Assembly: GCA_027013145.1 (NCBI GenBank)
Contig: JALUXX010000046.1
Location: 1 to 49,695, forward strand
Origin: Gammaproteobacteria bacterium
GTDB lineage: Bacteria > Pseudomonadota > Gammaproteobacteria > 21-64-14
Reading direction: 5' to 3'
DNA: 49,695 bases
Position numbers and translations under genes: made by a program
The notes under the pieces: generated by a model
What the model saw: the letters and a program-made list of their open reading frames with translations, nothing else
Told to the model about the DNA's origin: nothing
Database searches by the model: none
Part shown: in pieces, positions 10,266 through 40,721 of the stretch
How positions within the stretch are numbered: position 1 is the stretch's first letter
Layout: each line of letters begins with the position of its first letter

Positions 10266-11714
10266 CTATTCGAAGAACCCGTGCAGGAACCACCGCCCCC
10301 CGGCGCCCGGAACACGGAAGATCCACAGGCGCATCCCGTTCGGCGTGCGCGCCACGAAGTAATCGCGTACCGCATCCGCGCCATCCCACCACCCGCTTTC
10401 GATGCGCTCCCGCTCCGGCGCCAGGGCCAGCGTACCGCCGTAGCAGGGGCGTCCGCCGCGCGCCTCCAGGGGGAGCGGCCGCGGCAGCAGCCACAGCGGG
10501 CGCGCGCTCCGCAGCGGCGGGGGCGGCGTCCCCCCGACCGTCGCCCCGGGCGGGCAGGTCCGGTACGCGCGCTCCGGGCGGTGATCCTCGGTGAGCCCCA
10601 GCCCCTGCACGGAGTCCTCCTGCAGGCGCGCGCGCAGCCGGTCGAGCAGCGCCGCCGCGGCCGGAGGCGCGCCGGTGCCGAACCATCCGCCGGCGTGGTC
10701 CGGAGGCAGCGGCACGATGCGCCCCGCTCGCAGGACGAGCGCCGCGACCGGCGCCGTCAACTTCAGGGTATCCAGGCGCAGGCGCACGGGTTCCGCCAGG
10801 CGCGCGGGCGCGCGGGTCGGGGCGGCGAACCCGATCCGCACCGCCGTCGGCGCACCCCGGCGCGGCAGCAGCCGCAGCTCCAGCGACTCCACCCCCGCCT
10901 GGCGCCCGGCGAGCACCGCGGCGAGGTCGCCGAGCAGGCGCCGGGCGGCGAACGCCAGGGCATCGGCCCGCTCCACCTCCGCAGGCAGATCCAGTCGATC
11001 CTCGAACTGCGGCGGCGGCACGAAGGCCGGCCGGGGATCGGGGGCGATCCCCAGCGCGCGATCCAGGGCGGCGAGCACCGGTGCCGCGCGCCGCGCCAGG
11101 CCGGCGCGCGGCAGGCGCAGACACTCGCCCAGGGAGCGCACCCCCAGTCCCTCGAGCGTCGTACAGACTTCCGGCGGCATCTCCAACAGCGCCGGCGGCA
11201 GCCCGGCGAGCTGCGTGCGCAGCGCCGCGAGATCCGGGGCCTCGCGCTCCTCCCCCGCCCGCGCCAGCAGGCTCGCACCCAGCGGCGTGGGCGCCAGCGC
11301 CGTATGCACCCGGTGGCCGAGGCGCGCGACGCCGGCGCAGACCTGCGCACGCAACACCGAAACCCCGCCGAACAGCGACGCACTGCCCTCCACTTCCAGC
11401 AGCACCTCGCGCGGGGGCGCCGGACTCACCCGCGGCGTGAAGCGCCCCGCCCATTGCGCGAGCCGCTCCAGGGCGCGCCTCTCCGCCGCCGCATCCCGCA
11501 CCCGCAGGACCAGCCCCTGCGCCAGGGCGCGGGCAGCCCCCGCCTCCATGCCCGGCCTCACGCCGCGGGCGCCGGCCGCGGCGTTGCAGGCTACGATGCG
11601 CGGGCGCCGCGACGCCCCGTCGCTCACCGCCAGCGGCACCGCGCGCGGGATGGCCCCGCCGCGGCTGAAGACCTCCAGCGCCAGATCGGGGAGGTGCAGG
11701 CATAACCAGTGCAT
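10266..11714 (-). CDS. imuB: ImuB, Y-family polymerase-like translesion synthesis factor
   Basis: This is a 482-residue protein with Y-family polymerase architecture: the palm/fingers region (about 1-240) has EGSASLFGG, the helix-hairpin-helix follows as LGVRSLGECLRLP, and then comes the little finger. The first catalytic acidic motif is replaced by LHLPDLALEVF, as in ImuB proteins, which are catalytically inactive and bridge the beta clamp to a working polymerase. In other bacteria ImuB acts with ImuA and DnaE2 in damage-induced mutagenesis. The ATG at 11714 is four bases past the imuA stop, so the two are coupled. No dnaE2 follows. Confidence 0.92.
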   Translation of the reverse strand: MHWLCLHLPDLALEVFSRGGAIPRAVPLAVSDGASRRPRIVACNAAAGARGVRPGMEAGAARALAQGLVLRVRDAAAERRALERLAQWAGRFTPRVSPAPPREVLLEVEGSASLFGGVSVLRAQVCAGVARLGHRVHTALAPTPLGASLLARAGEEREAPDLAALRTQLAGLPPALLEMPPEVCTTLEGLGVRSLGECLRLPRAGLARRAAPVLAALDRALGIAPDPRPAFVPPPQFEDRLDLPAEVERADALAFAARRLLGDLAAVLAGRQAGVESLELRLLPRRGAPTAVRIGFAAPTRAPARLAEPVRLRLDTLKLTAPVAALVLRAGRIVPLPPDHAGGWFGTGAPPAAAALLDRLRARLQEDSVQGLGLTEDHRPERAYRTCPPGATVGGTPPPPLRSARPLWLLPRPLPLEARGGRPCYGGTLALAPERERIESGWWDGADAVRDYFVARTPNGMRLWIFRVPGAGGRWFLHGFFE

Positions 11715-14159: not shown

Positions 14160-14747
14160 ATGAAAATGAACCGCGCGATCCCCCGGGCGCCGGCCGCCCC
14201 GGCCACGCCCTCGGGGAATCCCTGCGACGAGGTGCTGGTCTCGCTGCGCCGTATCGTGCGCGCGATTGATCTGCATTCGCGTCGCCTGATCCATGAGCAC
14301 GGTGTCACCGGTCCGCAGATCCTGCTGTTGCGCAGCCTCTGCGCACGCCAGCCCAGCGCCGTCGGGGAACTGGCACGGTCCCTGCAACTCAGTCAGGCGA
14401 CCGTCACCGAGATGCTCGATCGGATGGAGGACCGGGGCCTGATCCGGCGCGTGCGCTCGCGCTCCGACCGGCGTCGCGTGATGGTACGAACCACGCGCGC
14501 GGGCGAGGCGCTGCTGGAGCGCTCGCCGCCGCTGCTGCAGGAGGGCTTCAGCGCCGCCTTCCGGCGCCTGCCCCGGCATGAACAGGAAACCATTCTCGAT
14601 GCCCTGCGACGGATCGCTGAGATGATGGATATCCGCGAACTCGACGCGGCCCCGGTGCTCGCGAGCGGGCCGCTCGCCTCCGACGGCGCGGGGGATCCGC
14701 CTCCCGACCCGGATCCGGCCGCCCAGGGCCGTCGCCGGAGGCGCTGA
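14160..14747 (+). CDS. MarR-family transcriptional regulator of the NAGGN operon
   Basis: This is a 195-residue protein. The winged-helix core (about 25-145) contains GVTGPQILLLRSL, SAVGELARSLQLSQATVTEMLDRMEDRGLI and the basic wing RVRSRSDRRRVMV. The Pro/Asp/Arg-rich tail (about 165-195) is unusual. The stop is two bases before asnO, whose ribosome site lies within the last codons, so translation is coupled. A MarR gene at the head of the asnO-ngg pair is a known arrangement and points to a regulator of osmolyte synthesis. The start is uncertain: ATG 14160 or 14166, or a GTG near 14232. Confidence 0.85.
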   Translation: MKMNRAIPRAPAAPATPSGNPCDEVLVSLRRIVRAIDLHSRRLIHEHGVTGPQILLLRSLCARQPSAVGELARSLQLSQATVTEMLDRMEDRGLIRRVRSRSDRRRVMVRTTRAGEALLERSPPLLQEGFSAAFRRLPRHEQETILDALRRIAEMMDIRELDAAPVLASGPLASDGAGDPPPDPDPAAQGRRRRR

Positions 14748-14749
14748 CC

Positions 14750-16528
14750 ATGTGTGGAATCTGCGGAGAGATCACCTTCGATGCGCGCCCTGCCTCGAAC
14801 GCGGCGGTAGCGGCGATGACCGCCGCCATGACACCGCGCGGCCCGGATGCCGGCGGCGGCTACGCCCAGGGCCGGATCGCCTTCGGCCACCGCCGCCTGA
14901 AGATCGTGGACCTGAGCGAACACGCCTGCCAGCCCATGGTCGACAGCGAACTGGGCCTCGCACTCGTATTCAACGGGATGATCTACAACTACCGCGAGCT
15001 GCGGCGCGAACTCAAGGCCCGCGGCTACCGCTTCTTCTCGCACGGCGACAGCGAGGTGCTGATCAAGGCCTACCACGCCTGGGGGCCGCGCTTCGTCGAC
15101 CGGCTCGCGGGGATGTTCGCCTTCGCCCTGTGGGAGCGCGACAGCGGCCGGGTCGTGCTCGGGCGCGACCGCCTCGGCATCAAGCCGCTCTATTACAGCT
15201 ACAGCGGGGACGCGCGGCGCCTGCGCTTCGCCTCGACCCTGCCCGCGCTGCTGGCCGCCGGCGAAGTCGACACCGCCATCGACCCCGTCGCGCTGCATCA
15301 TTACATGAGCTTCCATGCAGTGGTACCGGCGCCGTACACGATCCTGCGCGGCGTGCGCAAGCTGCCCCCGGCGACCCTGCTGACCCTCGAGCCGGATGGC
15401 ACGCGGCGGGAGGAACACTACTGGGCCCCCTCGTTCGAGCCCGAAGCCGGCGACGAGGCCCGCAGCCCCGAGGAATGGCGCGAGGCGGTCCTCGGTACGC
15501 TGCGCACCGCGGTGCGGCGGCGGACCGTGGCCGACGTCCCCGTGGGCGTACTGCTCTCGGGCGGCGTGGACTCGAGCCTCATCGTGGGTCTGCTGGCCGA
15601 GGCCGGGCAGCGCGATCTCAACACCTTCTCGGTCGGCTTCGAGAGCGTCGGCGGCGAGGCCGGCGACGAGTTCCGCTACTCCGATCTGGTGGCGCGCACC
15701 TTCGGCACCCGGCACCACCGTATCGAGATCGACGCGCAGCGCACGCTCGACGCCCTGCCCGACTGCATACACGCCATGTCCGAGCCGATGGTCAGCCACG
15801 ACGCCATCGGCTTCTACCTGCTCTCCGACCACGTCAGCCGCGAAATGAAGGTGGTGCAGAGCGGCCAGGGCGCCGACGAGGTGTTCGGCGGCTACCACTG
15901 GTATCCGCCGCTGCTGGAGAGCACCGACCCGGCGGGCGACTACGCGCGCGTGTTCTGCGATCGCGACCACGCGGAATACCTGCAGGCCGTGCACCCCGAC
16001 TTCGCCGGCGCCGACCACAGCGGCCGCTTCATCGAAGAGCACTTCGCACGCCCGGGCGCGCCCGGCGCCGTCGACCGGGCGCTCCGCATCGACACCACCG
16101 TGATGCTCGTGGACGATCCGGTCAAGCGCGTCGACAACATGACCATGGCCTGGGGCCTGGAGGCGCGCGTACCGTTCCTCGACCACGAGCTGGTGGAACT
16201 GGCCGGTCGGATCCCCGCCTCCCTGAAGGTGGCGGGCGGCGGCAAACACGTGCTCAAGGAGGCCGCGCGCGCCGTGATACCCGCCGCGGTCATCGACCGG
16301 CCCAAGGGCTACTTTCCGGTCCCCGCCCTCAAGTACTTGCGCGGGCCCTATCTGGAACGCGTGCGCGCGACCCTCGATAGCCCCGCGGCGCGCGCGCGGA
16401 AGCTGTTCCGGCGCGAGTATGTGGACACGCTCCTCGCGGATCCGGAGGCGCACGTCACACCGTTGCGGGGCTCGAAGCTCTGGCAGCTCGCATTGCTCGA
16501 GTCCTGGCTCCAGTCCCACGGGATCTGA
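14750..16528 (+). CDS. asnO: N-acetylglutaminylglutamine amidotransferase (asparagine synthase-like)
   Basis: This is a 592-residue class II glutamine amidotransferase. Cys2 of MCGICGE is the glutaminase nucleophile (N-terminal domain about 1-210). The C-terminal synthetase domain has the PP-loop LLSGGVDSS near residue 266 and GQGADEVFGGY. The family amidates N-acetylglutaminylglutamine to form NAGGN, a dipeptide compatible solute made under osmotic stress. GGAGG lies eight bases before the ATG. The partner synthetase follows at once, which separates it from ordinary asparagine synthetase. Confidence 0.93.
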   Translation: MCGICGEITFDARPASNAAVAAMTAAMTPRGPDAGGGYAQGRIAFGHRRLKIVDLSEHACQPMVDSELGLALVFNGMIYNYRELRRELKARGYRFFSHGDSEVLIKAYHAWGPRFVDRLAGMFAFALWERDSGRVVLGRDRLGIKPLYYSYSGDARRLRFASTLPALLAAGEVDTAIDPVALHHYMSFHAVVPAPYTILRGVRKLPPATLLTLEPDGTRREEHYWAPSFEPEAGDEARSPEEWREAVLGTLRTAVRRRTVADVPVGVLLSGGVDSSLIVGLLAEAGQRDLNTFSVGFESVGGEAGDEFRYSDLVARTFGTRHHRIEIDAQRTLDALPDCIHAMSEPMVSHDAIGFYLLSDHVSREMKVVQSGQGADEVFGGYHWYPPLLESTDPAGDYARVFCDRDHAEYLQAVHPDFAGADHSGRFIEEHFARPGAPGAVDRALRIDTTVMLVDDPVKRVDNMTMAWGLEARVPFLDHELVELAGRIPASLKVAGGGKHVLKEAARAVIPAAVIDRPKGYFPVPALKYLRGPYLERVRATLDSPAARARKLFRREYVDTLLADPEAHVTPLRGSKLWQLALLESWLQSHGI

Positions 16529-16531
16529 GGG

Positions 16532-18268
16532 ATGGGCGGCAGCGTGAACCGACGACACCGTTTCGAGCGCAGTCATTCGACTTCGCTCCAGAACTGGAAA
16601 CCGGTCCCGCGCCCGGACAGCGAGCGCATGGACACGAACGTCGCGCTCGACTGCGGCTGGGGCCGGCTCATCGTCGGCTACACCTACCGCGACAACGCCG
16701 AGTTGGCTCGCACCCTGTGCGACGAGGAACCCGGAAAGCGCGACATCGCCATCTACCTGCGCGACCCGCACGTGGTGATCTCGATCGCCCCGCAGGAGCT
16801 GTTCCTGGATCCCTCCCACACCTTCCGCCTGTGGCTGGACCGCTATCATGTCGGCGCCGAGCGCCCGCAGGGCTTCATCGTCCGCCGCATGCTCTCACGC
16901 CGCGACGCCGAGGCGATCAATACGCTCTACGGCCGCCGCCATATGGTACGGACCGACCCGGAATTCCTCTGGGAGCACCGCGAATCGCGCATCCTCACCT
17001 ATCTGGTCGCGGAGGACCTGCGCAGCGGGGCGGTCATCGGCACGGCCACCGGGGTGGATCACCGCGAGGCCTTCAGCGACACCGAGAACGGCGCCAGTCT
17101 GTGGTGCCTGGCGGTCGATCCCCAGGCCCCGCACCCCGGCGTCGGCGAGGCCCTCGTGCGCCAGCTCGCCGGGCACTACCTCACCCGCGGACGCGCCTTC
17201 CTCGACCTGTCGGTGATGCATGACAACGGCCAGGCGATCGGACTGTACCGGAAACTCGGCTTCGTACGCGTGCCGGTGTTCACGCTCAAGCACAAGAACC
17301 CGGTCAACGAGCCGCTGTTCATTGCGCCGGCGCCCGAGGCGGAGCTCAATCCCTACGCCGCGATCATCGTCACCGAGGCGCGGCGGCGCGGCATCGCCGT
17401 GGAGGTGCTCGATCAGGAGGCCGGGTACCTCTCGCTCAGCTTCGGCGGGCGCACGGTCGTATGCCGCGAATCGCTCTCCGAACTCACCACTGCGGTGGCG
17501 ATGAGCCGCTGCGATGATAAACAGGTCACGCGCCGCGTCCTGGAGAAGGCGGGGCTGAGAGTGCCCGCACAGCGGATCGCGAACACCGACGAGGAGAATC
17601 TGGAGTTTCTCGAACGCTACGGCCGGATCGTGGTAAAACCCGCGCGCGGCGAACAGGGGACCGGCGTCAGCGTCGACCTGCGCACCCCCGAAGACGTCGC
17701 GCGCGCGGTGGAGGAGGCGCGGCGCCATTGCGAGCGCGTGCTGCTCGAGGAGTTCGTGGAAGGTGAGGATCTGCGCATCGTGGTGATCGACGACCGGGTC
17801 GTCGCCGCGGCCGTACGCCGCCCGCCGCGCGTGATCGGCACCGGGCGCCACAGCGTCGAGCAGCTCATTGCCAAGCAGAGCCGGCGCCGCGCCGGGGCCA
17901 CCGGGGGCGAGAGCCGGATCCCGCTCGACGAGGAGACCCGCCGCTGCGTCGCCGCCGCGGGCTACCGCCTGCAGTCGACCCTGCCCGCCGGCGAGGTCCT
18001 GCAGGTGCGCCGCACCGCCAATCTGCACACCGGGGGCACCATCCACGACGTCACCGCCGACCTCCATCCGCATCTGGGGCGCGCCGCCGTCGACGGCGCC
18101 CGCGCGCTCCACATCCCGGTCGTCGGTCTCGACTTCCTCGTGCCGCGGGTCGACGGCGAGGACTACGTCGTGATCGAGGCCAACGAACGCCCCGGGTTGG
18201 CGAACCACGAACCGCAGCCGACGGCGCAGCGCTTCATCGACCTGCTGTTTCCGCTCACCGCGAAGTAG
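16532..18268 (+). CDS. ngg: N-acetylglutaminylglutamine synthetase (GNAT + ATP-grasp)
   Basis: This is a 578-residue two-domain enzyme. A GNAT acetyltransferase domain spans roughly 110-260 (LWCLAVDPQAPHPGVGEALVRQLAGHY region). An ATP-grasp ligase domain spans about 300-575, with VVKPARGEQGTGVSVDL, ERVLLEEFVEGEDLRIVVI and VIEANERPGL. It acetylates and joins glutamines to make the precursor that AsnO amidates. It lies three bases after the asnO stop. The first ATG is kept, but its ribosome site is very close; GTG 16544 or ATG 16628 are possible alternatives, since the first ~35 residues are variable in this family. Confidence 0.92.
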   Translation: MGGSVNRRHRFERSHSTSLQNWKPVPRPDSERMDTNVALDCGWGRLIVGYTYRDNAELARTLCDEEPGKRDIAIYLRDPHVVISIAPQELFLDPSHTFRLWLDRYHVGAERPQGFIVRRMLSRRDAEAINTLYGRRHMVRTDPEFLWEHRESRILTYLVAEDLRSGAVIGTATGVDHREAFSDTENGASLWCLAVDPQAPHPGVGEALVRQLAGHYLTRGRAFLDLSVMHDNGQAIGLYRKLGFVRVPVFTLKHKNPVNEPLFIAPAPEAELNPYAAIIVTEARRRGIAVEVLDQEAGYLSLSFGGRTVVCRESLSELTTAVAMSRCDDKQVTRRVLEKAGLRVPAQRIANTDEENLEFLERYGRIVVKPARGEQGTGVSVDLRTPEDVARAVEEARRHCERVLLEEFVEGEDLRIVVIDDRVVAAAVRRPPRVIGTGRHSVEQLIAKQSRRRAGATGGESRIPLDEETRRCVAAAGYRLQSTLPAGEVLQVRRTANLHTGGTIHDVTADLHPHLGRAAVDGARALHIPVVGLDFLVPRVDGEDYVVIEANERPGLANHEPQPTAQRFIDLLFPLTAK

Positions 18269-18481
18269 CGTATTCCACTACCTTTTCATCGACGTCGCCG
18301 CGGCGCGCACCTCGCCCGTCGGCCCGGCCCGCGCGTGTCTGCGCCGGCGCGCGGGGCGGACGCAGAGATCCCGCCCGGGGAACCGAACCCCAGCCCCCGG
18401 TGGTCAGAGACATTGGCGTCGACGACGCCCGCGCCGCCCGGCGACCGCACGGATGCGCCGCGTACCCGATGGAGTTGCGCA

Positions 18482-19819
18482 ATGACCGAGAGCCTGCTGG
18501 TGATCGACGACGAGCCCGCACGCGCCGCGCAGTGGCGCAGCCACCTTGAAGGCGAGGGCTGGAAGGTTCGCACCGCCGCCACGCTGACCGCGGCCGCGGC
18601 CGTGCTCGCCGCGCCGGAACCGCCCCTGCTGGTGCTCGCGCGCGCGCGTCTGCGCGAGGGCGGCGTATGGGAGCTGCTCACGGCGACGCGCGGGAAAACG
18701 CTCGATTGGATCCTGCTCGGTGTGACCCCGGAAGAAGGCGCGCGCGCGCGGAGCTACGGGGTGTATGCCCTCCCCGATCCCGCCCCGGACGCCGCCGTGA
18801 GCCAGCTGGTCGCGGCGGGGGCGCGCTGTGTTCATGCCCGGCGGCGGCTGAGCGAGGCGTGCACGCGTGCGTCCGGGCGCTTCCGTCCGGAGCGCTTCGT
18901 CGGTGTCAGCGCGGCCGCCCGCGCGGTCCGCGACCTGGCCGGGCGCGTCGGACGCGAACGGCCCGCCGCAATCCTGATCGGCGGCGAGGCCGGCACCGGC
19001 AAGCGCCTCGCGGCGCACATCCTCCACTATGCAAGCGAGCGCTCGTCCGATCCCCTCGTGCGCGTGCGCGCCGCCGGGCGCGACCCGCTCGAGCTGGAAC
19101 AGGAACTGTTCGGACCGCGTCCCGCGGACACCCGCGGGCCCCTTGAGCGCGCCGCCGGCGGAACACTCCTGGTGGTGGGGATCGGGGCGCTCGGCCCCGC
19201 CCTGCAGGAGCGCCTGCTCGACGAACTCGACCGGCGCGGCGCGGCCGCGCCGCGCCTCATCGCGACCGATTCCGGGTCCCCCGACCAGCCGTCCGTCGCG
19301 GGTTCCCCAGCCCCGCGTCTGGCCCGGATCGCCGGCCGGGCGCGCCTGTACCTGCCGCCGTTGCGTGAGCGGCGCGAGGATCTCGCCGCGCTCGTCCCGC
19401 ATCTGGTGAACCGCATCTGCGCGGCGATCGGGACGCGGAGCGCCGAGGTGCCCGAGGCGGTGTGGCGCGAATTGCGCGCCTACGACTGGCCCGGGAACGT
19501 CCGTGAACTGCGCAACGCGCTCGAGCGCGCGGTCCTCCTCGGCAACGACGGACGCCTCGCCTCGCCGCGCCTGGGCGGCGCGGACGACACCGCCCGTCTG
19601 TATCTGCCGCTCGACGGCAGCCTCAGCCTCAACGACATGGACCGGCGCATCATCCAGGCGGCCCTGGAGCGCAGCCGCTACAACGTGACCGCCGCGGCGC
19701 GCGCGCTGGGGACCACGCGGGAAACCCTGCGCTACCGCATACACAAACACGGCCTGCACCGGAACCGCGGGGAAAAGGCGGCTGCGGACCGGAACCCGTC
19801 GGCTGATTGCGGGTCATAA
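18482..19819 (+). CDS. Degenerate NtrC-like regulator (receiver + AAA+ + Fis-type HTH)
   Basis: This is a 445-residue protein. The N-terminal receiver-like domain (1-115) begins LLVIDDEP but lacks the phosphoacceptor Asp, reading LLVLARARL there. The AAA+ domain (about 138-350) keeps Walker A GGEAGTGK (167-174) and WPGNVREL (336-343). It has lost the GAFTGA sigma-54 loop after ELFG (208-211), and its Walker B reads GGTLLVVGIGAL without the acidic pair. A Fis-type helix-turn-helix (385-422) ends the protein. It therefore probably binds DNA without activating sigma-54 polymerase. GGAG precedes the ATG. It lies between the NAGGN operon and the protease gene. Confidence 0.85.
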   Translation: MTESLLVIDDEPARAAQWRSHLEGEGWKVRTAATLTAAAAVLAAPEPPLLVLARARLREGGVWELLTATRGKTLDWILLGVTPEEGARARSYGVYALPDPAPDAAVSQLVAAGARCVHARRRLSEACTRASGRFRPERFVGVSAAARAVRDLAGRVGRERPAAILIGGEAGTGKRLAAHILHYASERSSDPLVRVRAAGRDPLELEQELFGPRPADTRGPLERAAGGTLLVVGIGALGPALQERLLDELDRRGAAAPRLIATDSGSPDQPSVAGSPAPRLARIAGRARLYLPPLRERREDLAALVPHLVNRICAAIGTRSAEVPEAVWRELRAYDWPGNVRELRNALERAVLLGNDGRLASPRLGGADDTARLYLPLDGSLSLNDMDRRIIQAALERSRYNVTAAARALGTTRETLRYRIHKHGLHRNRGEKAAADRNPSADCGS

Positions 19820-20029
19820 CCCCCGAACGCGTATGCGCACGGCCCGTTGCGCCGCACCGCCCCGAAGGGGTCGCGGATTGCGGTGGATCGGGCTGAAATT
19901 CAGGCACTTCCGGCACCGCTCCGGACACCCCGGGGAATGGGGTATGCTGGTCGGCGCTCTCAGGGCCCCATCCGGCGACGCGGGAACACGCCGGGTCGCT
20001 ATCGACAATCCCAGGTACGAGGTGGATTC

Positions 20030-21463
20030 ATGATCAGATCTGCGAAACGGACGGCGCCGGGCTGGGTCGCGCTGCTGCTGATGTTCTTCGCCGCAACGGG
20101 GGTCGCACAGGCCGATTGCGGGTGCCTGCCCAACTTCACCAAACTGGTCCAGGAAAACCGGGCTGCGGTGGTCAACATCAGCAACACCATGAAACCCGTC
20201 AAGGAGAGCGGCGGGGACCTCCAACAGTTCCTGCCGCAGTTCCCGCAGAACAGCCCGTTCAACGACTTTTTCAAACACTTCTTCGGCCAGATGCCGCAGC
20301 AGCCGCGCGAGTTCCACGAGAAGTCGCTGGGTTCGGGCTTCATCATCTCCTCCGACGGTTACATCCTGACCGCCGCCCATGTGGTCGCCAATGCCGAGCG
20401 CATCGTGGTGAGCCTCGCCGATCACCGCGTGTTTCCCGCCAAGATCGTCGGCTCCGACAAGCTCTCCGATGTCGCCCTGCTCAAGATCGACGCCCATAAT
20501 CTGCCGACCGTGAAGATCGGCGACTCCGCCAAGCTTCAGGTCGGACAGTGGGTGCTCGCGATCGGCTCCCCCTTCGGCCTCCAGTACACGGCCACGCACG
20601 GCATCATCAGCGCGCTGGGGCGCAACCTGCCCAGCGACATCTACGTGCCGTTCATCCAGACCGACGTCCCCGTCAACCCCGGCAATTCCGGCGGCCCGCT
20701 CATCGACATGAAGGGGGACGTGATCGGCATCAACGACCAGATCTACACCAACACCGGCGGCTACATGGGCCTGTCGTTCTCCATACCCATCGACGTCGCG
20801 ATGAACGTCGTGCATCAGCTCAAGACCCAGGGCTATGTGAGCCGCGGCTGGCTCGGTGTCATGATCCAGCCGGTGACCGAGCAGCTCGCCCAATCCTTCG
20901 GGCTCAAGCGTCCGGTCGGCGCCCTGGTGACGCAGGTCATGAAGGACAGCCCCGCCAAACGCGCGGGCCTGAAGCCCGGCGACATCATCCTCCAGTACAA
21001 CGGGACGGATGTGGTCGATTCCGCGCACCTGCCCCCGCTGGTCGGCAATACGCCGATCGGCAAGGTGGTCCCGGTCAAGGTCCTGCGCGACCGGCGCGAG
21101 ATCACCCTGCAGGTGAAGATCGCACAACTGCCCAAGTCCGAGCAGCTCGCCACGTTGACGCGTCCGCCATCATCGCAGCATCAGGGGCGCCTCAAGATCG
21201 TGGTCTCGGACCTGACCAAGGCGCAGCGCCACAAGATGGGCATCGGCGATGTCGGCGTGCTGGTGAAGGAAGTCGCCGAGGGACCCGCGGCGCGTGCCGG
21301 GATCCAGCCGGGCGACGTGATCCTGCGCATCGGCAGGCACGACATCCGCAGCGCGGCCCAACTCGCGAAGCTGGTCGGCAAGCTACCGAAGGGCAAGCCG
21401 GTGCCGGTGCTGATCTGGCGCAACGGCAACACCCTGTTCCTGGCGCTGACACTGCCGGGCTGA
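20030..21463 (+). CDS. degP: Do-family periplasmic serine protease (DegP/MucD type)
   Basis: This is a 477-residue protein. It has a signal peptide cut near Ala28 (GVAQA|DC), a trypsin-like domain with the triad His117 (TAAHVV), Asp147 (SDVALLK) and Ser220 (PGNSGGPL), and two PDZ domains (about 275-365 and 380-475). A Gln/Phe-rich LA-loop region (62-90) is present. It degrades or refolds misfolded envelope proteins. GAGGTG precedes the ATG at 20030; longer readings start inside non-conserved sequence. It stands alone, with no rseA/mucAB nearby. A long hairpin follows its stop. Confidence 0.94.
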   Translation: MIRSAKRTAPGWVALLLMFFAATGVAQADCGCLPNFTKLVQENRAAVVNISNTMKPVKESGGDLQQFLPQFPQNSPFNDFFKHFFGQMPQQPREFHEKSLGSGFIISSDGYILTAAHVVANAERIVVSLADHRVFPAKIVGSDKLSDVALLKIDAHNLPTVKIGDSAKLQVGQWVLAIGSPFGLQYTATHGIISALGRNLPSDIYVPFIQTDVPVNPGNSGGPLIDMKGDVIGINDQIYTNTGGYMGLSFSIPIDVAMNVVHQLKTQGYVSRGWLGVMIQPVTEQLAQSFGLKRPVGALVTQVMKDSPAKRAGLKPGDIILQYNGTDVVDSAHLPPLVGNTPIGKVVPVKVLRDRREITLQVKIAQLPKSEQLATLTRPPSSQHQGRLKIVVSDLTKAQRHKMGIGDVGVLVKEVAEGPAARAGIQPGDVILRIGRHDIRSAAQLAKLVGKLPKGKPVPVLIWRNGNTLFLALTLPG

Positions 21464-21525: not shown

Positions 21526-21657
21526 CCGGCATCCGGTTCGGGCGGCGGGCGATCCCGTTTCCGACTCCGGTCGTCGGCGCCCGGCCGCCCCTTTCGCGGC
21601 CCCGCTCCGGTGTTAGCATAAAGGGCCGGCGTGCCCACGCAGCACAAGGAGGCGATC

Positions 21658-22800
21658 ATGTCCGCACCGAACCCCCTGCTCTCCCTGAAGGCGCTCGGAC
21701 AAAGCATCTGGATCGACTATATCGAGCGCTGCATCCTGCAGGACGGGACCCTGGATCGCTGGATCCGCGAGGACGGCGTCGCGGGCATGACTTCCAACCC
21801 CGCGATCTTCGAGAAATCGATCGCCCATACCGATCACTACAACGCCGCAATCCGGGCGCTCGCCGCGGAGGACCTCGGCACCGAAGCCCTCTACGAGCGG
21901 CTCGCGGTCGAGGACGTGCGCACCGCCGCCGATCATTTCCGGCCCGTATACGAGGACACCGCCGGCATCGACGGCTACGTCAGCCTCGAGGTCTCGCCGC
22001 TGCTCGCCCACGACACCGAGGGTACGGTGCGCGACGCGCATCGCCTGTGGCGCGAACTCGATCGCCCCAATGTCATGATCAAGGTACCGGCCATGCGCGA
22101 GGGGCTGCCCGCCGTACGCGAGCTGATCCGCGCCGGGCTCAACATCAACGTGACGCTGCTGTTCTCGGTGGGCCGCTACGTGGAGGTCGCCGAGGCCTAT
22201 ATCGCGGGCCTCGAGGCGCGGCTCGCCGACGGCAAGCCGATCGATCACATCGCATCCGTGGCGAGTTTCTTCCTCAGCCGTATCGACGTCAAAGTCGACC
22301 CCCTGCTCGACGCCATCGCCGCGGGCGACGACCCCGCGCGCGCCGAAACCGCGCGCCGGTTGCGGGGCGCGATCGCCGTGGCCAGCGCCGGCATGGCCTA
22401 CCGGCGGTTCCGGGAGATCTTCTCCGGCCCGCGCTGGGAGGCGCTCGCCGCGCGCGGCGCGCGCCCGCAGCGGCTGCTGTGGGCGAGCACGAGCACCAAG
22501 GACCCGAGCTATCCGGACACGAAATACGTCGAGCCGCTGATCGGCCCCCAGACGGTGAACACCGTCCCGATCGAGACGCTCGACGCCTATCGCGACCACG
22601 GGGATCCCGCCCCGCGCCTGGATGAGACCGCGGCCGGAGCCGCCGACACCCTGCGACGCCTCGCCGACCTGGGTATCGATCTCGCGCGCGTGGACCGGGA
22701 ACTCGAGGAGGAAGGGGTGCGCAAGTTCGTCGAGCCCTTCCACCACCTCCTCGAAACGGTGGAACAGCAACGCCGGGCGGTACAATCGCGCCGCGCCTGA
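21658..22800 (+). CDS. tal: Transaldolase
   Basis: This is a 380-residue enzyme. MTSNPAIFEKSI, INVTLLFSVGRY and SVASFFLSRIDVKVD are family blocks, and Lys142 in VMIKVPA is the Schiff-base lysine. It moves a dihydroxyacetone unit between sugar phosphates in the non-oxidative pentose phosphate pathway. The length matches the long TalB-unlike clade found next to zwf in actinobacteria, cyanobacteria and some proteobacteria. AAGGAGG precedes the ATG at 21658; nine codons upstream are excluded. It lies 20 bp before zwf, almost surely one transcript. Confidence 0.94.
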   Translation: MSAPNPLLSLKALGQSIWIDYIERCILQDGTLDRWIREDGVAGMTSNPAIFEKSIAHTDHYNAAIRALAAEDLGTEALYERLAVEDVRTAADHFRPVYEDTAGIDGYVSLEVSPLLAHDTEGTVRDAHRLWRELDRPNVMIKVPAMREGLPAVRELIRAGLNINVTLLFSVGRYVEVAEAYIAGLEARLADGKPIDHIASVASFFLSRIDVKVDPLLDAIAAGDDPARAETARRLRGAIAVASAGMAYRRFREIFSGPRWEALAARGARPQRLLWASTSTKDPSYPDTKYVEPLIGPQTVNTVPIETLDAYRDHGDPAPRLDETAAGAADTLRRLADLGIDLARVDRELEEEGVRKFVEPFHHLLETVEQQRRAVQSRRA

Positions 22801-39854: not shown

Positions 39855-39975
39855 GGTGAGGACGCCGCGAAGGCGGCGGCATACGTTGCGAATGGGATCC
39901 GGCCGCGGATTATAGTCGGTCGGCGGGCCGAGGCGGCGCGCTCGAGGCCGCGACATGCCACGCCGGGCGATCCAA

Positions 39976-40001
39976 CAAAAACCCCGCCTTGCGGCGGGGT
40001 T
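39976..40001 (-). terminator. Rho-independent terminator of the cold-shock gene
   Basis: On the minus strand AACCCCGCC-GCAA-GGCGGGGTT is followed by TTTGTT. It lies 27 bp past the cold-shock gene stop and separates it from prfC. Confidence 0.9.
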
Positions 40002-40028
40002 CGTACCGCGATACGCCTCGCGGGGGGT

Positions 40029-40235
40029 TCAACCGGCAGCGCTGACCTGGGTCGCCTGCAGTCCCTTGGGTCCACGCTGGACCTCGAAGGTGACGCTCTG
40101 GCCTTCGGTCAGGGTCTTGAAACCCGACCCCTGAATGGCGGAGTAGTGAACGAAGACATCCTCTCCCCCGTCCGCCGGGGAGATGAAGCCGAAGCCCTTG
40201 GATTCGTTGAACCACTTGACAGTTCCGTTACGCAT
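40029..40235 (-). CDS. cspA: Cold-shock-domain protein (CspA family)
   Basis: This is a 68-residue single OB-fold protein. [18 protein letters not shown] contains RNP1 (KGFGFI), VFVHYSAI is RNP2, and the end is GLQATQV. It binds single-stranded nucleic acids and melts RNA structure. The ATG at 40235 follows GAGGTCTG; an ATG-like start seven codons earlier was not used. A -10-like TATACT (40359-40364, minus) would give a leader of about 115 nt, in keeping with thermoregulated csp mRNAs. An intrinsic terminator follows. Confidence 0.95.
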
Positions 40236-40364
40236 GCTTTGACAGACCTCAGACAATTACGGATCGGGTTTGCGTGCAGTGGCACGGAGCGGAGTTCACA
40301 GGAGGGACCCGACGGGTACTACCGGATACGACCGATCGACGGCGACTGCACGGCGCGCAGTATA
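40236..40364 (-). promoter_or_regulatory. Long 5' leader and possible promoter of the cold-shock gene
   Basis: TATACT at 40359-40364 (minus strand) is a good -10 with no convincing -35. The untranslated leader to the ATG would be about 115 nt. Long leaders that refold with temperature are known for csp genes. The remaining gap 40365-40721 before the next gene shows no gene or clear repeat. Confidence 0.35.
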
Positions 40365-40721
40365 TCGCAACGCCGCCGCAAAAACCACTGGCCCGCGTTT
40401 CTCACCGGGATCGCGCCGGGATCGCGGAAGCAGGCGCCGCTCTGGAAGGAAAGTGGTAGCCACAGCTACTCTGGACTGAAGAGCACCCCTGCGAAGGCGA
40501 AGACCGGCCTAAACCGTGATAGGCCGACGGCGCAAACGCAGTGTCGGCACCCGATTCCCCGCTATCGTGCCGGATACCTCCCTCGTTCCGGGGCCCTGCG
40601 CCGTAGCCGTCGGCCGCCCGGCGAGAAATGCGGGCTAGAGGCCGCCGGGCCGGTAGAATGGGCCCGCCCCGGGGACCACCGCTGTCCCCGGGGCCCCGGC
40701 CCGTCCGCCGAGAGGATCGCC

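Follow-up and report, generated by a model that had tools for sequence, protein, structure and literature searches.

A degenerate NtrC-family response regulator upstream of htrA: loss of phosphorylation, ATPase and sigma-54 motifs and a possible remaining role in DNA binding

Organization of the locus

The stretch of DNA analyzed here (49,695 nucleotides, hereafter the window) carries a gene for a degenerate NtrC-family response regulator of 445 amino acids, called REG (18482-19819, forward strand). A ribosome-binding site, GGAG (18471-18474, forward strand), was recognized in the sequence before its ATG at 18482. Three genes of an N-acetylglutaminylglutamine amide (NAGGN) module lie upstream of REG on the same strand: a gene for a MarR-family regulator (14160-14747), asnO, encoding N-acetylglutaminylglutamine amidotransferase (14750-16528; 1007.5 bits, cut-off 570.1), and ngg, encoding N-acetylglutaminylglutamine synthetase (16532-18268; 887 bits, cut-off 569). 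Downstream, also on the forward strand, are the gene for a Do-family (HtrA/DegP) periplasmic serine protease (20030-21463), which is the probable target of REG, and a transaldolase gene (21631-22800). The frame after the transaldolase gene was read by eye as glucose-6-phosphate dehydrogenase.

The slot occupied by ngg holds a histidine kinase gene in the relatives of REG. The order kinase-regulator-HtrA-transaldolase was found in relative L124 and the order regulator-HtrA in L131, and the window has REG-HtrA-transaldolase. Because of this common gene order, the position of REG looks ancestral and the kinase appears to be the missing piece. No histidine kinase gene was found at the REG locus, and the genome holds no orthologue of the L124 kinase (the best match was 33% identical over 231 of 489 amino acids), so that relocation of the kinase elsewhere in the genome was ruled out. 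Loss of rpoN as the cause was also ruled out, since rpoN is present in the genome.

Motifs lost and retained in the regulator

REG was compared with its relatives by alignment. A sequence-only reading of the window had claimed that the receiver Asp, the GAFTGA loop and the Walker B acidic pair were lost and that Walker A, WPGNVREL and the Fis-type HTH remained, and the alignment agreed with it on all of these points. In the receiver domain (amino acids 1-118; 18482-18835), which folds as a receiver in the structure model described below, Arg replaces the phospho-acceptor Asp of the relatives at codon 54 (18641-18643). The Thr and Lys of the phosphorylation pocket are lost as well, the Lys being replaced by D99, while the acidic pair D9-D10 is retained. 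In the AAA+ core (amino acids 139-293; 18896-19360), Walker A, GEAGTGK, is retained (amino acids 168-174; 18983-19003). GAFTGA (loop 1) is gone through a 7-residue in-frame deletion after P214 (junction at 19121-19126), and Walker B is changed from FLDEIGE to LVVGIGA, with Val-Gly in place of Asp-Glu at residues 232-233 (19175-19180). Further losses, which the sequence-only reading had not listed, were those of the switch Asn (R196 in REG) and of the sensor I Asn and the arginine-finger stretch FRxDLYHR, both replaced at residues 276-283. A second deletion was found after residue 253. Among Walker A, the Walker B Asp-Glu pair, sensor I and the arginine finger, Walker A is the only part of the ATP hydrolysis site that REG has kept. 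LRERREDL and WPGNVRELRN are retained, as are the AAA+ lid (19361-19555) with YDWPGNVRELRN at amino acids 334-345 and the Fis-type HTH (HTH_8; amino acids 375-428; 19604-19765), the latter identified by both Pfam and the alignment.

The Pfam search returned the architecture of a Sigma54_activat-family AAA+ protein with a lid and a Fis-type HTH. AAA_lid_14 (PF25601) was matched at 1.1e-16 and HTH_8 (PF02954) at 1e-11. Sigma54_activat (PF00158) was matched at 5.4e-15, but just positions 3-120 of 168 were covered, and Response_reg, at 0.012, was under its cut-off. With the same models an intact relative gave 5.8e-62 for Sigma54_activat and 6.4e-15 for Response_reg.

The relatives align to REG in one continuous frame, all insertions and deletions relative to them are in frame, and no other frame, when inspected by eye, carries the missing motifs. 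Codon usage is gene-like in every domain and best in the HTH. The frame antisense to REG is also open over 444 codons, and because of the G+C content of the organism an open frame is by itself weak evidence for REG.

We then counted, domain by domain, how many of the positions conserved in at least 90% of the relatives are kept by REG. It retains 21 of 43 such positions in the receiver and 31 of 70 in the AAA+ core, compared with 18 of 19 in the lid and 17 of 17 in the HTH (lid and HTH versus receiver and core, Fisher P = 4e-9). When the intact relatives were put through the same test, nearly all positions were kept in all domains. Judged indirectly, by these counts, the pattern in REG is the one expected if selection acted on DNA binding and no longer on catalysis; the loss is taken as selective on the ground that neutral decay should strike all parts equally. 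Alternatively, recombination may have restored the 3' half of REG. The order to which the organism belongs contains two genomes and the other one lacks REG, so that dN/dS was not computable.

A structure model of REG, built from an alignment with its relatives, had a mean pLDDT of 82, with the receiver, AAA+ core, lid and HTH all folded and with uncertainty at the loop around residues 267-273 and in the tail after residue 428. Its best full-length structural matches were Brucella NtrX with ATP or ADP (the top match), NtrC1, NtrC4 and VpsR (7v2b). The model weakly supports a stable fold of REG, since models made from aligned intact relatives are prone to look intact themselves.

Relatives of the regulator

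Close relatives of REG were present in 18 of 369 gammaproteobacterial genomes, counting its own genome. A pattern-limited scan of a wider contig collection gave two more, in Thiodictyon (L026) and Ensifer aridi (L027). Searches in the order to which G056 belongs and in the family of G139 yielded no further relatives. The nineteen relatives are about 31-44% identical to REG and have in common the linker motif LPLDGS, the lid and the HTH. All of them have Walker B, the arginine-finger region and GAFTGA or a near form of it (GAYTGA in L130, GAFTDA in L135), and the AAA+ motifs are kept in all matches to REG at E <= 1e-42. The receiver Asp is present in every complete receiver of a kinase-paired relative, and in nearly all relatives a histidine kinase gene precedes the regulator gene, often overlapping it.

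Two relatives, L138 (genome G247) and L139 (genome G139), have no adjacent kinase gene. Their ATPase and sigma-54 motifs are intact, and the receiver is mostly deleted in L138 and strongly diverged in L139. Judging from these sequences, this regulator has been orphaned more than once, and L138 and L139, with the receiver alone degraded, may represent an earlier stage of a loss like that of REG.

The sequence-only reading had proposed looking for a conserved clade that shares the losses of REG, and had named close homologues with all motifs intact as a finding that would refute it. No such clade was found: the close homologues keep the AAA+ motifs, and no second genome with a degenerate form of REG was detected among the 369 gammaproteobacterial genomes or in the pattern-limited scan. 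In the phylogenetic tree REG was placed inside the clade of its relatives on a very long branch (3.41 versus a median of 0.6). By path length the relatives nearest to it are L124 and L131, and the forks there are poorly supported.

Operator and sigma-54 promoters

In 7 of 18 relatives a strong sigma-54 site (-24/-12) lies 60-300 bp after the response regulator gene and in the same orientation, against 0.87 expected (P = 1e-5). The palindrome GGTKSATATSMACC lies 65-111 bp upstream of such sigma-54 promoters in the relatives, and in many cases two copies stand 18-32 bp from each other. It was first spotted by eye in five loci and then tested with leave-one-locus-out matrices. These gave 33 operator-promoter pairs with a spacing of 50-120 bp, against 1.6 expected, and the spacings were phased at 10.5-10.75 bp, in step with the DNA helix (P of about 1e-7); pairs that share one promoter are not independent, and both the spacing and the phasing figures are somewhat inflated for that reason. 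The palindrome is the probable binding site of the HTH of this clade. Such sites precede htrA, the transaldolase gene and, in L131, the kinase gene itself, and they also occur near cydAB-like genes in L128, L129 and L134; a strong site from one of the relatives reads GGTGGATATCCACC. Long near-identical direct repeats (GGCGATTGCCGGAAAATG...) were also observed about 1-300 bp past the regulator stop codon in L132.

In the window, the operator matrix gave a candidate operator, GGGTCATAACCCCC, at 19811-19824, across the stop codon of REG and 205 bp before the htrA start codon. It outscores every other operator match in the 49.7 kb window (chance of 0.004 for that 225 bp); its score is 12.3 bits, against 14-22 in the relatives, and it stands alone, without a partner site, and lies partly within coding sequence. 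No sigma-54 -24/-12 site was found before htrA in the window, unlike in the relatives, and no sigma-70 promoter was recognized nearby. By exact pattern counts the operator consensus does not occur in the genome that carries REG, and a broad REG regulon is unlikely for this reason.

The sister genome

The genus has one further genome, G001, which was compared with the window. Its HtrA is 86% identical and the flanks are syntenic, but REG and the NAGGN genes are both missing. What is left is a 54-bp block (L146:12407-12460), 87% identical to the window, which spans the last 11 codons of REG, the stop codon and the bases after it. Hardly any other DNA from the upstream flank to htrA can be aligned, which hints at constraint on this block at the DNA level. 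This 54-bp match is solid; an HTH-like fragment before it is borderline (1 of 500 shuffles). Around the palindrome 26 of 27 bases match the window, and the sister counterpart of the candidate operator, GGGTCATAACCACC (L146:12431), is slightly better than the palindrome in the window, although coding constraint no longer acts on it in the sister genome. Five exact operator matches in the sister genome are without sigma-54 pairs and mostly overlap long frames, and they were taken as chance.

Comparison with known regulators

In architecture and loss of GAFTGA, REG resembles the sigma-54-independent bEBP homologues, a kind of protein already known. Like REG, VpsR of Vibrio cholerae is an NtrC-type receiver-AAA+-HTH protein with the GAFTGA loop deleted and Walker A complete; it aligned with REG over residues 138-355 at 2e-22 and has the same loop-1 deletion. 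The promoters under VpsR control are described as sigma-70 promoters (PMC10274813), and the protein binds cyclic di-GMP (PMC10714721). However, VpsR retains the conserved receiver Asp (PMC10274813), whereas REG lacks it and has its arginine-finger and sensor I regions replaced, and by sequence REG falls in the kinase-paired clade.

The NtrC proteins of Rhodobacter capsulatus and Caulobacter lost GAFTGA by an in-frame deletion of loop 1, as REG did, and regulate through sigma-70 (PMC10274813). They keep the NtrB kinase and the receiver Asp, and Caulobacter NtrC keeps the required Walker A and B residues, while REG is without kinase, Asp and Walker B. R. capsulatus NtrC requires ATP binding but not hydrolysis (PMC10274813). 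TyrR and DhaR of E. coli and HupR of R. capsulatus are bEBP homologues whose GAFTGA is defective and which came to depend on sigma-70 (PMC3162934); they are different proteins, likened to REG by description. REG was also compared with the kinase-paired clade (L123-L136, L026 and L027), which has the same lid, LPLDGS linker and HTH, with the regulator-HtrA-transaldolase order in L124. This clade keeps the receiver Asp, the GAFTGA-type loop, Walker B and the arginine finger, all four of which REG lacks; it has a neighbouring kinase in nearly all cases and many sigma-54 sites with operators, in contrast to the one candidate operator of REG. A limited literature search found no description of this two-component sigma-54 system. 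It is the extent of the loss, which takes in the kinase and the target promoter as well, that is unusual in REG.

Interpretation

Sequence analysis yielded the motif losses, the lack of a kinase, the retention of lid and HTH, the operator-promoter architecture of the relatives and the lack of a sigma-54 site before htrA. On this basis we favour, with slightly better than even confidence, the reading that REG is a DNA-binding regulator, probably of htrA, which would act independently of a kinase, of ATP hydrolysis and of sigma-54. We infer that the REG protein is produced and binds to DNA and that it targets htrA, and the sign of regulation is likewise a matter of inference. The ancestor would have been the response regulator of a two-component system. 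Where this system is still intact, it appears to activate htrA, the transaldolase gene and others through sigma-54 from pairs of GGTKSATATSMACC. In the REG lineage the kinase gene would have been lost, and the MarR-asnO-ngg module would have taken its place. Without phosphorylation, the receiver and the ATPase engine would have decayed and the sigma-54 promoter of htrA would have vanished, while selection preserved the lid and the HTH. REG would then most likely bind the old operator, at least that at 19811-19824, without phosphorylation, ATP hydrolysis or sigma-54, and may tune a sigma-70-type htrA promoter, either by touching RNA polymerase or by acting, constitutively or under slow modulation, as a repressor or roadblock; its occupancy upstream of the htrA start codon allows repression of a putative promoter or activation. 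The stronger version, that REG persists as a bare binder of the htrA operator after losing all four functions and that the htrA promoter switched from sigma-54 to sigma-70, is put forward tentatively and must be considered doubtful.

The idea that the scaffold has been reused, raised in the sequence-only reading, is therefore upheld by the kept lid and HTH and by the operator-like site before htrA, and it is weakened in that no clade shares the losses. Its suggestion that REG senses something other than phosphorylation has the retained Walker A as its sole direct evidence. By analogy with R. capsulatus NtrC, REG may with this Walker A still bind ATP but not hydrolyse it.

If the stronger version is true, with its switch of the htrA promoter, REG offers a snapshot of a two-component sigma-54 activator becoming a simple DNA-binding regulator. 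Single losses in bEBPs, either of GAFTGA or of dependence on phosphorylation, have been documented, but the steps to sigma-54 independence have seldom been observed alongside loss of both the partner kinase and the target promoter. In the case of REG the kinase, phospho-site, ATPase, sigma-54 loop and target promoter are lost, and the lid, HTH and candidate operator remain. The relatives, in turn, supply a testable operator and promoter architecture for their two-component system.

REG could instead be a pseudogene in progress, dispensable after the loss of the kinase, in which the lid and HTH have simply not yet been hit. We consider this unlikely, though it is the rival to be taken most seriously: the long branch, the restriction of the losses to one genome, the sister species, where the same gene was deleted and 3' debris alone is left, and the lack of an exact operator in the genome would all fit with decay. 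However, of the conserved positions 35 of 36 were spared in the lid and HTH while 61 of 113 elsewhere were lost, which neutral decay should not produce, and REG has neither a stop nor a frameshift, its insertions and deletions being in frame.

It is rather improbable that REG is a VpsR-like ligand-sensing sigma-70 activator, in which Walker A and the receiver would bind a nucleotide or ligand without hydrolysis and so set DNA binding or oligomerization. The completeness of GEAGTGK when the rest of the site is gone, the loop-1 deletion and close structural match shared with VpsR, the ATP-bound Brucella NtrX as top match and the need of R. capsulatus NtrC for ATP binding would agree with such a role, but the receiver Asp kept in VpsR-type relatives is gone from REG, which has also lost half of the positions conserved in the receiver and core.

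It is very improbable that REG serves specifically to regulate the NAGGN osmolyte genes next to it. REG follows ngg immediately and in the same orientation, and both are missing in the sister genome, but among 12 other NAGGN loci a REG-like regulator was adjacent in none and a MarR gene in five. In P. aeruginosa the MarR protein PA3458 controls the NAGGN operon (PMC8070244), and the same MarR, asnO and ngg genes adjoin REG, which is not part of the module elsewhere; the MarR gene is co-directional with asnO-ngg in the window and divergent in P. aeruginosa. The operator-like site before htrA outscored any found upstream of asnO or ngg, and synteny links REG to htrA and the transaldolase gene. 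Lastly, although the losses were seen in one genome alone, it is judged very unlikely from the sequence, to the point of being negligible, that the regulator is intact and was misread in sequencing or assembly. Such an error would have to account for at least six separate losses, each of them in frame and together spread across about 250 codons, with gene-like codon usage in every domain and the missing motifs in no other frame.

Other features of the window

Two features away from the REG locus were also recorded, both on the reverse strand. The Rfam cspA thermoregulator (RF01766) was matched at 39974-40376 with 78.8 bits, barely above its cut-off of 78. The frame at 10266-11714 resembles ImuB, a relative of the Y-family polymerases, when its translation is read by eye, and the rest of a DNA-damage mutasome possibly lies near it.
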